Virus record (IMG/VR): IMGVR_UViG_3300042090_000484
Span: 1 to 23,836 of that record
Length of the DNA: 23,836 nt
Direction: 5' to 3' (one strand)
From: a virus
Part shown: positions 4,476 through 11,464 of the stretch, piece by piece
Layout: each line of letters begins with the position of its first letter
Numbering within the stretch: the first letter of the stretch is position 1
Notes under the pieces: model-generated
Told to the model about the DNA's origin: nothing
The model's input: the letters and a program-made list of their open reading frames with translations, nothing else
The model's database searches: none
Translations under genes and position numbers: made by a program

Positions 4476-5693
4476 ATGATTTCCGACGCCGCGATCGCCG
4501 AGCTCAAGCTCCGCAACCCGTGCGACCAGGTCGCGGGCCAATGGGTCAAGCTCCGCCGGCATGGCAAGAAATTTGTCGGCCCGTGCCCGCTGCATTCGCC
4601 GGATCCGGCGGCGCGGGATTCCACGTCGTTCGAGTGCGAAGCCGACGGTTGGGTCTGCGCGACCTGCCACGACGGCGGCGACGTCATCCGCCTGGTCGCG
4701 CTTCGCCACGGTCTCGATCCGCGGCGGGATTTCCTCGAAGCGGCGCAATTGCTCGGCGGCTTTGCCGAATTGTCGGCCGAGCGCGCGGCCGAGCTCGACC
4801 GCGAACGGCAAATCCGCAAGACCAGGCGCGAGCAGGAGGCTAACCAATTCCGCGAGCGCGAGCGGCGCACGGCGTTCGATATCTGGCATGCCGGCCGGTC
4901 TTACGCCGGCACGCCGGTCGAGGATTATCTCAAAACCGCACGCGGCATTGCCGCGCTTCCCGAGCGGCTGCAGCTGCGCTTCGCGCCGATCGTGGCGTTC
5001 TTTCATGGCGAGGAAACCGACGAGCGCGGCCGCCGGGCGCCGCGGGTCATTCATCGCGGGCCGGCGATGCTGGCGCCGATCGTCTCGACAGGGTCGGGCG
5101 GCGACGCCCGATCGGCTGCCGGCAAATTCCGCGGCGTTCATATCACCTGGCTGGATCTCCAACGGCCGAACGGCAAGGCGCTGATTAAGGATCCGGAGAG
5201 CGGCGAGCCGCTGTTGCCGAAAAAGGTGCGCGGCTCGCAAGCCGGCAACGCCATCCGCCTGGTCGACATGCCGGCGCCGGCGATCGCCTATGCCGGCGAG
5301 GGCATCGAGACCGTGTTGTCGGTTTGGTATGCGCTCAACCGCGCCGGCGCCATGCTCGAGCGGTCGATATTCTGGTCGACCGTGTCGCTCGGCAATCTCG
5401 CCGGCAAGTCGGCCGAGCCAGTGCCGCACCCGAACTTGAAAGACGCCGCCGGGCGTGTGCGCAGGGTGCCCGGTCCGACGCCCGATCTCGGCGACGCCGG
5501 CATCGCCTTTCCCGAGACGCTCGAGGAACTGGTGCTGCTCGGCGACGGCGACAGCGATCGCTTCGCCACGGCCCTGGCGCTCAACCGCGCGGTGCTGCGG
5601 CATTCGCGCGCCGGCCGGCGCGTCAGTGTCGCCTGGTCGCCCGACGATACCGACTTTAACGACGAATTGCGCCGCGAGGAAAAAGCGGCGTAA
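4476..5693 (+). CDS. DNA primase: CHC2 zinc finger plus Toprim domain
   Basis: A 405-residue protein. Zinc ligands C37-x2-H40 and C61-x2-C64 (GPCPLHSP, then GWVCATCHDGGDVIRLV) form the CHC2-type finger that lets primases read template DNA. A basic, Glu/Arg-rich helical linker follows (about 95-140). The Toprim domain has the conserved Glu in YAGEGIETV (E275) and the metal-binding D-x-D in LLGDGDSDR (D357, D359), with a C-terminal DDTDFND. Known members synthesise RNA primers for phage replication, often with an SF3 helicase, which is the next gene only 14 bases downstream. The start has a weak ribosome-binding site. It is shorter than DnaG (about 580 residues) and lacks a DnaB-binding tail. 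Confidence 0.9.
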   Translation: MISDAAIAELKLRNPCDQVAGQWVKLRRHGKKFVGPCPLHSPDPAARDSTSFECEADGWVCATCHDGGDVIRLVALRHGLDPRRDFLEAAQLLGGFAELSAERAAELDRERQIRKTRREQEANQFRERERRTAFDIWHAGRSYAGTPVEDYLKTARGIAALPERLQLRFAPIVAFFHGEETDERGRRAPRVIHRGPAMLAPIVSTGSGGDARSAAGKFRGVHITWLDLQRPNGKALIKDPESGEPLLPKKVRGSQAGNAIRLVDMPAPAIAYAGEGIETVLSVWYALNRAGAMLERSIFWSTVSLGNLAGKSAEPVPHPNLKDAAGRVRRVPGPTPDLGDAGIAFPETLEELVLLGDGDSDRFATALALNRAVLRHSRAGRRVSVAWSPDDTDFNDELRREEKAA

Positions 5694-5707: not shown

Positions 5708-7729
5708 TTGGGTTGGCAAACGATTGCTGCGATCATTGCTGGCCGCGGCCCGCTCGAGCTACCGCCGATCCCGCGCGCGGAGCGCGCAAAGGACAAACGT
5801 GCGCGCCGTCAGGCGCGCTCCGCTCAATCGTCCTCTCCCGCACAGTCGGCCGACAACGGCGCACAGGCCGCGCCTGGTGCTGATTTTCCGTCCGATGCTT
5901 CTTCCGTTGCCAAGTCTATAACTGCCGCGCCGGCGCTGGCCGACGCCGCGCCGCTGTCCGCCGGCGGTCAAATTGTCGGATCCTCCCAAATGGGAGGGAC
6001 AGACGAAAGTGGGCGGTCTGCAGAAACCGGCAATGGCGGCTATACGCCGCCGCCGTTCGAGGAGGATCCGTGGCCGCGGCAATCTCCGGACGGCCCCGAC
6101 GATATCGATCTGCGGCTCGCCTATTACCCGCACACCGATCTCGGCAATGCCGAACGCTTCCGCGAGCGCTACCGCGGCAAGCTCCTATGGTGCCCGGCAC
6201 TCGGCTGGCTGTGGTGGAACGGCAAATGCTGGTCGCGCGACGGCGCCGAGGACGTGGTGAAAAGCGCCGAGCATGACACCGTGCGCGGGATTCAGCGCGA
6301 AGCGGATGCGCTGCGCGGGGCGAGCAAGGCCGAGCTTGAGGCGGGCGACAAACGCCGCAGCGCGGCTGACCTGTTGCTCGGCACCAAAAAAATCTATGGC
6401 GTCGAAACGGCAATCTATTTGTCGGACGCGCTGGCGTCGTGGGGCCGGGTATCCGAACAGGCCAACAAGCTCGCGCCGATCGCCAAGCGCGCGGCGCCTT
6501 ATCTGGCGATCGCGCCGGAAAAGCTCGACGCCGATCCGTTCAAGTTTAACGTTGCCAATGGCACGCTGATCTTTCGCCGGCGTCCGCGGGTGAATGGCGG
6601 CTCGCCGCCGGATGACACCGATGCTATTTCCTTCCGGTCGCACGATCCGGCCGATCTCATCACCAAATGTTCGCGCGTCGCCTACGATCCGAAAGCTCTC
6701 TGTCCGGCATTCGATCGGTTCCTGGTCGACGTGCAGCCCAAGGAGGAGGATCGGCGTTTTCTGCTCGCCTGGCAGGGCGTGTCGCTGACCGGCGACGTGT
6801 CCGATCAAAAGCTTTGCGTATTTTGGGGCAAGGGCAAAAACGGCAAATCCACCTTCATCGACGCCTGCGCGTTCATCGGCGGCGACTATTCCGAAACCGT
6901 GCCGATCGAGACGTTCCTTAACGAGGGGCGCGGCCGCAATGCCGGCCAGGCGACTCCGGATCTCGCTATCCTGCCCGGCGTGCGGCACCTGCGCACGTCG
7001 GAGCCTGACCGCGGCGCCAAGCTCGCGGAGGCGTTGATCAAGCTCGCAACCGGCGGCGAGCCGATCCTCGCGCGGCATCTGAACCGCGACTATTTCAAAT
7101 TCTATCCGCAGTTCAAGCTGACCATCAGCGGCAATTACCGGCCGACGATTTCCGGCGCCGATGAAGGCATCTGGCGCCGCGTGCAACTTGTCCCGTGGCC
7201 GATAACGATCGCGCGCGACGATCAGGATCCAAATTACAAGGCGGGCGACCCTGTCGTCGATCCGCACTTGAGTGACAAACTCCGCGCTGAGGCCGCCGGT
7301 ATCCTCAATCGATTGCTTGACGGCTTGCGCGATTGGCTGGAGCGCGGCCTGGTCACGCCGGAAAGCGTGCGCTCGGCCACTGCTGATTATCGTCGCGATT
7401 CCGATCCGCTCGGCCGCTTCCTCGAGGCGTGCGTCATTCCGCATCCTGAAGGCCGCGTGCAGTCGAGTGAGATGCATGAATTGTTTGTCGCCTGGGCGAA
7501 GGCCAACGGCGCGGCCGAGTGGTCGAACAAAGGCATGAGCGCGGCGCTGAAAGAGCGCGGCTTTACGACTACGAAGTCCGGCGTGGTGTTCTGGCTCAAT
7601 ATCAAATTGACGCGCGAGGTCGCCGATTTCCTCGATCGGGACGGCAAGCCGATCCGCGATGCGAATGCGCCCGCGCCCGAGTCGCGCGCTGTCAAGGGGG
7701 CAAAGGATGATGATCATGTCGATTTTTGA
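5708..7729 (+). CDS. Phage/plasmid primase-helicase, P4/D5 type SF3 helicase
   Basis: A 673-residue protein. The start appears to be TTG at 5708, preceded by GGGGGT at 5696-5701; no in-frame ATG or GTG precedes the conserved region after the previous stop. Residues about 35-130 are low-complexity Ser/Ala/Pro linker. The D5_N-like region (about 140-330) precedes the SF3 helicase core with Walker A GKGKNGKST (374-382), an Arg-finger-type block NYRPTISGADEGIWRR and VQLVPWPI, all typical of the P4-family primase C-terminal domain. The C terminus (EMHELFVAWAKANG) resembles the winged-helix tail of this family. It should unwind DNA as a hexamer at the origin, paired with the primase upstream. The codon run 5979-5998 carries one TCCTCCC/GGGAGGG dyad matching the repeats just downstream. 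Confidence 0.92.
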   Translation: MGWQTIAAIIAGRGPLELPPIPRAERAKDKRARRQARSAQSSSPAQSADNGAQAAPGADFPSDASSVAKSITAAPALADAAPLSAGGQIVGSSQMGGTDESGRSAETGNGGYTPPPFEEDPWPRQSPDGPDDIDLRLAYYPHTDLGNAERFRERYRGKLLWCPALGWLWWNGKCWSRDGAEDVVKSAEHDTVRGIQREADALRGASKAELEAGDKRRSAADLLLGTKKIYGVETAIYLSDALASWGRVSEQANKLAPIAKRAAPYLAIAPEKLDADPFKFNVANGTLIFRRRPRVNGGSPPDDTDAISFRSHDPADLITKCSRVAYDPKALCPAFDRFLVDVQPKEEDRRFLLAWQGVSLTGDVSDQKLCVFWGKGKNGKSTFIDACAFIGGDYSETVPIETFLNEGRGRNAGQATPDLAILPGVRHLRTSEPDRGAKLAEALIKLATGGEPILARHLNRDYFKFYPQFKLTISGNYRPTISGADEGIWRRVQLVPWPITIARDDQDPNYKAGDPVVDPHLSDKLRAEAAGILNRLLDGLRDWLERGLVTPESVRSATADYRRDSDPLGRFLEACVIPHPEGRVQSSEMHELFVAWAKANGAAEWSNKGMSAALKERGFTTTKSGVVFWLNIKLTREVADFLDRDGKPIRDANAPAPESRAVKGAKDDDHVDF

Positions 7730-8000
7730 TCCTCCCATCCTCCCAAATTCGCGCCGATCCTCCCTGCCGCAACACGTTGGTTTTGCTGCGCTTGGGAGGT
7801 TGCTGGAGGATAGGGAGGGTTTTGGCATTGATGACTCACGTGCATGTGTGCGCGCAGGCGCATGTGAGTCCGAGTGTCAAATAATCCTCCCATCCTCCCA
7901 AATTAAAAAAATCTCTCAATTAAGCGTCGCGTTTTGTTGGCTTTTCGGTTTGGGAGGATCGCGCGTTAATCCTCCCTCGATCCTCCAAATCCCTCCCTAG
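7730..8000 (+). repeat. TCCTCCC repeat cluster in non-coding DNA; candidate replication origin or control region
   Basis: Seen in the sequence: TCCTCCC on the + strand at 7730, 7738, 7758, 7885, 7893 and 7970, its complement GGGAGGA at 7952, and near copies at 7794, 7805, 7813, 7981 and 7991. A 20-base unit (TCCTCCCATCCTCCCAAATT) occurs exactly twice, at 7730-7749 and 7885-7904. The second copy runs into an AT-rich tract at 7900-7923 (21 of 24 bases A/T) in otherwise GC-rich DNA. An inverted repeat lies at 7833-7843/7860-7870 (11-base arms, one mismatch, 16-base loop). No convincing gene is present. The position directly after the helicase gene fits an iteron-type origin; a regulatory RNA is an alternative. 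Confidence 0.6.
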
Positions 8001-8015: not shown

Positions 8016-8042
8016 AAGCTTTTGGCAAATTGCCAAAAGCTT
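8016..8042. promoter_or_regulatory. 27-bp perfect palindrome (13-bp arms), candidate operator
   Basis: AAGCTTTTGGCAA at 8016-8028, one central base, then its exact complement TTGCCAAAAGCTT at 8030-8042. It sits 62 bases before the ATG of the HTH regulator-like gene at 8105 and at the right edge of the repeat cluster. Long perfect palindromes of this size usually bind dimeric HTH proteins. Autoregulation by the downstream gene product, or a role in origin function, is inference. No T-tract follows, so it is not a typical terminator. Confidence 0.6.
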
Positions 8043-8104: not shown

Positions 8105-9157
8105 ATGAGCCTGATACCGATTAGCGCCGGCACGGCGGAATGGGACGCTTGGATCAAACATCATCGCGGCAGCAAGACCGAAATGCGCATGCTCGAGTGC
8201 CTGGCGAATGCGCGGCCGTTCTACGTGCCGGCGCAATGGCCGCCGGATCTGCCGCGTGCCGATCGGATTACGCGCAAGCCGGAACTGCCGGCGCCGGTCG
8301 CCAGGCCGGAGCGTCGCTCGATCGGCGATGGTGAGGTTGCCGCGGTTGCCGGTCGGCTGTCGGCCAAGGCCGGCCGCGATGAGCAGGAAACCGCCGAGCA
8401 AAAAAAGCGCCGCAAGCTTTTCGCCAAGTCCGAGCAGCGCCGCGAGGCTGCGTTGGCCGCGGCGCGGGAAAACCGCAGACCCGAAGTTGAGGATGGCGAC
8501 GATTTCGACGTGGTGCGCATCGAGGATCCGAGCGAAGCGGTCGCGCTGGTCAAGGCCGGGCGAGGTCAACCGATGCGCGTTACGGTCAAAGCGAAGCCGC
8601 GGCACCGGATCGTGGCGCTCCGCGACGATCGGCTCGGCCAACTGGCAAAGCGCGGCATGCTCGGCCGCGGCGATGAGCGCGATAACCGCGTCGTCGCCGG
8701 CCGGCGCTGGCAATCGCTTTATGAAAAAGCCGAGATTGGCGGCGCGCGTGGACTCGATCCGGCAAAGGATATCGTCGACGGCGGAGTGTTCGCGTCGCCT
8801 GATACCGATCAGCGGCTGGCGGCGCAGGAAGTTCTCAATCGTCTGCGGCGCGAAGTCGGCATAATTGGCGATCGATTGCTGGTTTGGGTGCTCGGCGAGA
8901 AAAAAACCATGACCGAGGTTGCCGATATTCTCGGCGCCGATCGGCGTGACCTGCGGCTTTGCCGGCATCTGGCGGAGGCGCTCGATACGATAGCACTGGA
9001 GCTTGGCATCATCCGTAAGGCATCTAACGGCGTGCGCCGGTTTCGTGATCGCTATGCTGCCGAAGCCCGGTCGCTCGATCAGTTCGACGGGGCGCTCGCT
9101 GTAGCGGTTCACCGCGCTGCCAAGCTTCGCGAGTCGGAGAGGTCCGGCGGGGCTTGA
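8105..9157 (+). CDS. DUF6456-like helix-turn-helix protein, probable phage regulator
   Basis: A 350-residue protein if started at ATG 8105, preceded by GGGGAA at about 8091. A TTG at 8030 would add 25 residues but lies inside the palindrome and its extension looks unlike protein. The N terminus (WDAWIKHHRGSKTEMRMLEC) is followed by a very charged Arg/Lys/Glu linker (about 95-145). The C-terminal part, with GRRWQSLYEKAEIGG, VDGGVFASPDTDQR and the HTH-like TMTEVADILGADRRDLRLC (about 268-312), resembles the DUF6456 domain of alphaproteobacteria, which is related to sigma region-4-type HTH folds. It may bind the adjacent palindrome or repeats as a transcription or replication regulator. The family assignment is moderately sure, the role inferred. 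Confidence 0.7.
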   Translation: MSLIPISAGTAEWDAWIKHHRGSKTEMRMLECLANARPFYVPAQWPPDLPRADRITRKPELPAPVARPERRSIGDGEVAAVAGRLSAKAGRDEQETAEQKKRRKLFAKSEQRREAALAAARENRRPEVEDGDDFDVVRIEDPSEAVALVKAGRGQPMRVTVKAKPRHRIVALRDDRLGQLAKRGMLGRGDERDNRVVAGRRWQSLYEKAEIGGARGLDPAKDIVDGGVFASPDTDQRLAAQEVLNRLRREVGIIGDRLLVWVLGEKKTMTEVADILGADRRDLRLCRHLAEALDTIALELGIIRKASNGVRRFRDRYAAEARSLDQFDGALAVAVHRAAKLRESERSGGA

Positions 9158-10135: not shown

Positions 10136-11464
10136 GTGACGCCGAATAAGCCGCTTGTCATCGAGTACCTTCCGGTTGACGCGCTTGTCCCCTATCTCGG
10201 CAACGCGCTCATTCACTCGGATGCGCAGGTCAAGAAAATCGCCGCCTCGATCGCGCGGTTCGGCTTCAACAATCCGGTTCTGATCGATTCCGCCAACGTC
10301 ATCGTCGCCGGCCACGGTCGCCTCATGGCGGCCAAGCGCCTCGGCCTGGTCGAGGCGCCCGTCGTCCGGCTCGGTCACCTCTCCGACGAAGACCGCCGCG
10401 TTTACCGCCTCGCCGACAACCGCCTCGCCGAAGACGCCGAGTGGGATCCCGAGCTGCTCGCCCGCGAGGTGGCGGCGATCGAGGAGGAAGGGCTGGCGCA
10501 GCTCGCCGGCTTTACCGACAAGGAAGTCGAGCGCCTGCTCGCCGCTGCCGTCGGCGGTGGGGGGGGGCATACGAACCCGAACGCCGCGCCGGCCGCGCCG
10601 GCGAAAGCGGTGACGATGCCGGGGGACCTCTGGCAACTCGGCAAGCACCGGGTACTGTGCGGCGATGCGACTTCTGCGGACGCCGTCTCGCGTCTGCTCG
10701 CCGGCGCAAAGCCTAACCTGATGGTGACCGATCCGCCGTATGGCGTTGAGTACGATCCGAACTGGCGAAACGAAGCGGCGCGTACCAGCGAAGGCATGGG
10801 CGCTCGCGCGATCGGTCGCGTCGAAAATGACGATCGCGCCGATTGGCGTGCGGCCTGGAAACTCTTTCCCGGCGCTGTCGCCTACGTCTGGCACTCCGGT
10901 AAGCACGTTGCGACGGTCGCTGCATCTCTGGAGGTTGTAGGTTTCAAGCTCCGTGCGCAGATCGTTTGGGTGAAAACGCGCCCGGTCATTTCGCGCGGCC
11001 ATTACCACTGGCAGCATGAGCCGGCGCTCTATGTCGCCAAGGATGGCGCCGACGACAACTGGCGCTTTGTACCGGAGCATGAGATCGCCGCCTACGCGGT
11101 CGCTGACGGCGAAACCGCCGACTGGCACGGCGATCGCAAACAGTCGACCGTCTGGAACATCGAGCACGTCAAATCCGAAACCGGCCACGGCACGCAAAAG
11201 CCGGTCGAGTGCATGCGCCGGCCGATCATCAACAATTCCGACGTCGGCGATTTTATCTATGAACCGTTCGCCGGCTCCGGCACCACGTTGATTGCCGCCG
11301 AGATCACGGCGCGGAGCGCGTTGTGTCTGGAGCTTAAGCCCGCTTATGTCGACGTCATCGTTCGGCGCTGGCAAGCGTTCACCCGCGAAGCCGCGACGCT
11401 GCACGGCGACGGCCGCACCTTCGATCAGATTGCCGGAGCGCGTGGGATGTCGCTCGCGACGTAA
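10136..11464 (+). CDS. ParB-domain / beta-class DNA methyltransferase fusion
   Basis: A 442-residue protein with a GTG start at 10136. Residues about 8-110 form a ParB/sulfiredoxin-like domain (IAASIARFGFNNPVLID, VIVAGHGRLMAAKRLG, DEDRRVYRLADNRLAEDAEW). A short Gly/Pro/Ala hinge (about 142-155) leads to an adenine/cytosine-N methyltransferase: motif IV DPPYGVEY at 199-206 comes before motif I EPFAGSGTT at 376-384, the order of the beta class (CcrM and HinfI methyltransferases). HYHWQHEPALYV is typical of phage members. It should methylate exocyclic amino groups in DNA from S-adenosylmethionine; the target site cannot be read from sequence. No cognate restriction nuclease is next to it, so protection or epigenetic control is more likely. 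A G9 run encodes the hinge. Confidence 0.93.
   Translation: MTPNKPLVIEYLPVDALVPYLGNALIHSDAQVKKIAASIARFGFNNPVLIDSANVIVAGHGRLMAAKRLGLVEAPVVRLGHLSDEDRRVYRLADNRLAEDAEWDPELLAREVAAIEEEGLAQLAGFTDKEVERLLAAAVGGGGGHTNPNAAPAAPAKAVTMPGDLWQLGKHRVLCGDATSADAVSRLLAGAKPNLMVTDPPYGVEYDPNWRNEAARTSEGMGARAIGRVENDDRADWRAAWKLFPGAVAYVWHSGKHVATVAASLEVVGFKLRAQIVWVKTRPVISRGHYHWQHEPALYVAKDGADDNWRFVPEHEIAAYAVADGETADWHGDRKQSTVWNIEHVKSETGHGTQKPVECMRRPIINNSDVGDFIYEPFAGSGTTLIAAEITARSALCLELKPAYVDVIVRRWQAFTREAATLHGDGRTFDQIAGARGMSLAT

Follow-up and report, generated by a model that had tools for sequence, protein, structure and literature searches.

Facing iteron arms behind a D5/SF3 helicase gene as a probable replication origin in tailed phages

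What is the role of a repeat region of about 270 bp that lies between the stop codon of a phage helicase gene and the next gene, at position 8105? The window, by which we mean the whole stretch of DNA analyzed here, is a 23.8-kb linear IMG/VR contig from a tailed phage that may be incomplete, and it encodes its own terminase, portal-to-tail and other structural genes. An earlier note, made from the sequence alone, had read the repeats as an iteron-type origin of replication, with a CsrA-binding or otherwise structured RNA as the alternative. Here we describe the layout of the array and its helicase, follow both across other phages, and weigh the origin reading against its alternatives.

The repeat array and its helicase

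A pattern search located TCCTCCC at 7730, 7738, 7758, 7885, 7893 and 7970 on the plus strand and at 7952 on the minus strand, exactly the seven copies (six plus, one minus) counted earlier. These seven lie within 247 bp and make up 7 of the 11 copies in the whole window, where 1.99 ± 1.36 would be expected by chance; the corresponding expectation for the 247-bp array is about 0.02. The near copies mentioned in the earlier note are also present, corresponding to the three left-arm sites and the last two outer-right sites in Table 1, and its composition for the A/T tract is correct. The exact repeat that it described is real, with a length of 21 bp (7729-7749 = 7884-7904) rather than 20. It overlooked how these elements are arranged: the outer-left iterons are followed by the left arm, the alternating purine-pyrimidine run, the right arm, the A/T tract and the outer-right iterons, with the two arms facing each other. 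The final base of the helicase stop codon is also the first base of the first iteron, as it is in relatives.

Table 1 Features of the array and of the neighboring replication genes (window coordinates)
Feature	Position	Strand	Basis
DnaG-like primase (CHC2 zinc ribbon, DUF7146, sub-threshold Toprim_3)	4476..5693	+	Pfam and PHROG matches
D5_N / SF3 helicase, P4 family, probable initiator	5708..7729	+	PF08706, TIGR01613, 7ola
Outer-left iterons ATCCTCCC at 7729, 7737, 7757	7729..7764	+	Sequence, pattern matches
Left arm, three iterons G-rich on +: GGGAGGTT 7794, TGGAGGAT 7804, GGGAGGGT 7813 (spacing 10, 9)	7794..7820	-	Sequence, array map, same position in relatives
Imperfect hairpin GACTCAC (7833-7839) / GTGAGTC (7864-7870), encloses alternating run	7833..7870		
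Alternating purine-pyrimidine run CACGTGCATGTGTGCGCGCA, 20 bp, Z-DNA-prone	7837..7856	.	Dyad center
Right arm ATCCTCCC at 7884, 7892, facing left arm	7884..7899	+	Sequence, relatives
A/T-rich tract, 21/24 A/T, candidate unwinding element	7900..7923	.	Sequence; A/T enrichment in relatives
Outer-right iterons GGGAGGAT 7952 (G-rich on +), ATCCTCCC 7969, ATCCTCCA 7980, CCCTCCC 7991	7952..7997	.	Sequence
Perfect 27-bp palindrome AAGCTTTTGGCAAATTGCCAAAAGCTT, directly beyond array	8016..8042	.	

The interval 7730-8000 had been described as free of any credible gene, and we agree, as no frame remains open in relatives. A conserved ORF was rejected on the basis of frames broken in L135, L131, L290, L292, L139 and L133. 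Hypothetical ORFs have been annotated over the array of Paracoccus phage Pthi1 (L367, 12578-13058) and over crr of P4 (L382, 4096-4431), and these are probably spurious. The palindrome beyond the array keeps its place, about 265-290 bp past the helicase stop, in L006/L135, L139 and L004, where the stems differ in sequence and are still perfect. Since no T-run follows it, it is not a classic terminator.

The proposed neighborhood of primase and SF3 helicase genes was borne out by CHC2 and D5_N domain matches. The helicase matches PF08706 with an E-value of 9e-22 and 78.3 bits (cut-off 22.4) and TIGR01613, "phage/plasmid primase, P4 family", with 192.7 bits (cut-off 108.7). The helicase of a P4-family (D5_N/SF3) phage replication module is thus present above curated cut-offs. 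It also resembles the SaPI5 primase-helicase 7ola, both by profile (E 1.7e-15) and by fold. The C-terminal domain (about 7301-7726) was modeled by AlphaFold with a pLDDT of 90 and a helix-helix-strand wing order. Its best fold matches are the RFX DNA-binding domain, which is the closest, and the AsfvPrimPol C-terminus, with a weak E of about 0.01 (0.011 for RFX) and a probability of 1.0. Based on this model the domain looks like a winged helix, and we count this predicted part of the P4-family module as present; Pox_D5 occurs in 41 of 47 members. Elsewhere in the window, 1462-2310 matches PF18723, a helical domain of 5-hmdU DNA kinase, with an E-value of 1.4e-45, and going by this match the phage may carry a hypermodified thymine. 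The gene at 10136-11464 has a ParB-like N-terminal part fused to an N6/N4 DNA methylase.

Position, words and layout across phages

We examined the position of the array from two directions. A motif-first scan of IMG/VR for two ATCCTCCC words no more than 12 bp apart returned at least 120 loci. At least 34 of the 120 motif loci listed have a D5 helicase homolog, with 24-60% identity to the window helicase, and in nearly all of these listed loci the array adjoins the helicase 3' end. The helicase-first sample was blind to the motif and counted any repeated 7-mer in the 450 bp past the helicase stop of nonredundant viral loci. The helicases varied too much for one common alignment to be used in searching, so they were split into a window-like group and a second group. 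A 7-mer with at least four copies (4-13) occurs within the 450 bp in 59/61 and 60/66 viral loci, and in 36 of 65 genome loci, a sample extending to much remoter helicases. With shuffled sequence, the highest of ten trials gets to four copies in 10% of loci. At least three copies of TCCTCC/GGAGGA are found in 20-32% of loci, compared with 0.6-0.9% of control windows from the same loci. In seven of the eight viral exceptions the array sits 0.3-2.5 kb further downstream, though some of these have just five copies and are weaker, and L268 is the only exception with no array by the repeated 7-mer measure. The displaced arrays indicate that the array is a separate unit and not a by-product of the helicase 3' end. 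Its position is tied to the helicase even where the helicases are just ~28-35% identical, while the genes that follow it differ between phages and include an HNH nuclease, a methyltransferase, RusA, a resolvase and others. Each of four complete phages related to the window has a single array.

The association has limits. Among cultured phages, a clear array (at least five copies) was found in 10 of the 22 examined, with Methanoculleus virus L4768 borderline, and Rhizobium phage RR1-A is without such an array. A spread sample of 11 cultured phages with remoter D5 helicases included 10 without it, which rules out that every phage with a D5 helicase has an array; it is mostly absent where the D5 helicase is a distant one from an actinophage, Streptococcus or Vibrio. 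The claim is limited to the broad helicase clade of the window plus scattered others, and does not extend to all D5 phages. Other arrangements also occur behind such helicases. L154 has a different array 10-400 bp past the helicase, with 12 copies of GCTCGGC every ~33 bp. In phage NatCom_3357 (L389), a long inverted repeat with GTCTGGGTTAACCTC-type arms and no iterons follows right after the helicase stop, resembling the stem-loop origins proposed for pRN1.

All copies within a phage have one word in common, and this word varies from phage to phage. The words include GGGAGGAT, GGAAGGAT, GGGAGGGT, GGGCTTG, GGGCCTG, AGGGACG, GGGAGGC, GCAAGGG, GATAGTT and others; for example, L015 has GGGAGGA while Paracoccus phage Pthi1 has GGGCCTG. 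Cultured phages add CTGACGG (Acidithiobacillus AcaML1), AGTAACA (Bacillus phi105), GGCACAG (Mycobacterium Adephagia), AAAGTGA (Staphylococcus S-CoN_Ph25) and AGGGAGG (Synechococcus Sc-Yong805-1). The expectation that TCCTCCC iterons would be conserved in relatives is thus right for position and architecture and wrong for the exact word, which switches as a set. The iteron word behind the helicase of a Desulfobacteraceae contig (L333), GTGAACA, forms part of the P4 type-1 repeat GGTGAACA.

The layout is a mirror. Facing arms are present in 121 of 136 arrays; the gap between them has a median of 75 bp, and the iterons within the arms are spaced 8-10 bp apart. Three sites in each arm occur in 33 arrays, and in 30 of these the spacing is mirrored exactly. 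Mirrored sites are more similar to each other than crossed sites (0.832 vs 0.779, p 5e-7). Past the right arm, the next 40 bp are 60% A/T in relatives, compared with 36.5% for the loci overall. The longest alternating purine-pyrimidine run (at least 10 bp) lies inside the dyad in 94 of 136 arrays. Runs of at least 18 occur past the helicase in 54% of loci in the window-like group and 29% in the second group, compared with 0/776 and 0/880 other (control) windows. The tract is composed of (CG/TG)n in GC-rich phages and is TA-rich in AT-rich ones (phi105, S-CoN_Ph25). It is common and not universal, with L156, L152 and L148 lacking it.

We then compared word similarity with the identity of each helicase domain in 140 phages. 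Spearman correlations were 0.39 for the C-terminal domain, 0.37 for D5_N and 0.28 for the ATPase. As partial correlations these became 0.17 for the C-terminal domain, 0.11 for D5_N, and nil or negative for the ATPase; in pairs with ATPases more than 50% identical, the C-terminal domain and D5_N reached 0.29 and 0.18. The word therefore appears to track the helicase C-terminal domain better than the ATPase, a moderate signal that is partly shared with D5_N; the observed value was matched by 0 of 300 label permutations, with shared ancestry incompletely removed by this comparison.

The origin reading and its alternatives

Because the array is tied to the helicase, its word is concerted within each genome, and the word tracks the C-terminal domain, the comparison supports the iteron-origin reading of the earlier note. 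Judged on these sequence comparisons, 7729-7997 is very probably a replication origin, or at least an initiator-binding region required in cis. The turning point in GC skew that had been proposed as a check is absent from the array in the window and in four complete phages, and it is uninformative here.

In the mechanism we propose, the D5/SF3 helicase encoded directly in front would bind the ~9-10-bp iterons via its C-terminal winged helix, and the facing arms would let two helicase rings form around the dyad in a head-to-head arrangement. The duplex would be distorted or opened at the alternating hairpin center and at the A/T tract past the right arm, after which the rings would load and the adjacent DnaG-like primase would prime. 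Binding, double-ring assembly, the opening site and origin activity are steps that we infer. It is conceivable, if rather doubtful, that the alternating tract at the dyad center is a supercoiling-sensitive working part of this origin class, opening the origin by a flip to Z-DNA or a cruciform. Negative supercoiling or the assembly of the two helicase rings would trigger such a flip.

An improbable alternative is that the array is a crr-like element, through which the bound helicase would activate or regulate an origin located at another place, in the way that crr acts on ori in P4. P4 also has a P4-family helicase (TIGR01613), and its crr, a proven cis element, occupies the same place directly behind the helicase gene alpha, with facing ~8-bp type-1 repeats spaced 9 bp; the annotated P4 origin lies elsewhere. 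P4, however, has two repeat clusters (crr and ori), a primase fused to the helicase, and the word GGTGAACA, whereas the window has one array and a separate primase. Four complete relatives each have a single cluster, although the contig of the window is linear and perhaps not complete, and the array also contains candidate opening elements. The P4 alpha protein uses a winged helix for binding to its repeats (PMC4234260).

It is highly improbable that the arms act by pairing, either as a cruciform or single-stranded stem-loop origin like the one proposed for pRN1 or as a regulatory RNA (CsrA-like or an attenuator). The arms do pair strongly (z -7.5 as RNA, -5.3 as DNA), with mirrored spacing and sequence, and the archaeal plasmid pRN1 requires a ~100-bp cis element with dyad symmetry behind its primase-SF3-winged-helix gene (PMC4234260). 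That element, however, is described as a stem-loop without iterons, and the pRN1 primase is of the archaeo-eukaryotic type (PMC4234260). The arms fold because they are inverted iterons, which weakens both the RNA and the stem-loop readings. Between the arms, 119 loci have no excess structure (mean z -0.80, compared with -0.60 in control stretches), and a selected stem-loop there finds no support. The array region has no match in Rfam and no structure beyond the inverted iterons was found, and scans for promoters and terminators at the array found neither. Pairing also leaves the varied orientation of the outer iterons unexplained, and arrays lie up to 2.5 kb from the helicase, persisting despite genes inserted before them. 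The CsrA version is unsupported because many words are not of the GGA type (GGGCTTG, CTGACGG, AGTAACA). An operator or partition site, with a repressor, late activator or ParB-like protein as the factor that binds it, is hardly credible. Inverted repeats in clusters typify operators and parS sites as well, and the window has its ParB-like/methylase gene, but the array follows the helicase across phages with differing next genes, and the C-terminal domain that its word tracks is that of the helicase itself.

Relation to satellite replicons and meaning

For the initiator-binding origin that we favor, the principle is already known from P4, PICIs and SCCmec. PMC6092414 places PICI origins 3' of rep with two iteron sets, reports one that was tested functionally, and states that its authors knew of no other replicon with this organization. 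According to PMC7581432, SaPI Rep and SCCmec Cch2 bind iterons or origins behind their own genes via the C-terminal domain. PICI/SaPI origins (PMC6092414; SaPI5 Rep, PMC7581432) lie directly 3' of an initiator gene whose helicase product is homologous to the window's, and they comprise two iteron sets and an A/T element; the window array likewise lies immediately 3' of its initiator gene. PICIs and SaPIs are phage satellites, however, whereas the window has the structural genes of a complete-type tailed phage and is not a satellite. In the window the A/T tract separates the right arm from the outer-right iterons, and the facing arms differ in flanking a GC-rich alternating tract; neither an alternating center nor outer iterons are reported in the available text for PICI/SaPI origins.

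The putative origin of SCCmec Cch2 is similar as well: Cch2 is a helicase of the D5 type, and its C-terminal domain, when isolated, binds direct repeats that follow shortly after the gene (PMC7581432). These are three 5-nt AAGTG iterons in a staphylococcal cassette, with no facing arms described. Staphylococcus phage S-CoN_Ph25, with AAAGTGA in facing orientation, is an intermediate toward this type. The SV40 core origin is also similar to the array in combining an SF3 helicase, inverted GAGGC pentamers, a palindrome on one side, an A/T tract on the other, and a double hexamer. T antigen, however, reads its sites via an N-terminal origin-binding domain, and no kinship of sequence or domains is implied.

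What is new here is the presence of the array in ordinary tailed phages, its strict mirror layout with an alternating center, and the coupling of a set of switching words to the helicase DNA-binding domain. Nothing relevant to the GGGAGGAT word in phages was retrieved from the literature, and no paper describing these words was found in a search that covered few subscription journals. The same organization in many ordinary tailed phages fits a shared ancestry of satellite and phage replicons. The recurrent alternating center poses a directly testable question of how an SF3 initiator opens DNA. With dozens of words and dozens of winged-helix domains, the phage set is a natural experiment in the co-evolution of initiator and origin, and it is large enough for a recognition code to be sought through computation and binding assays.
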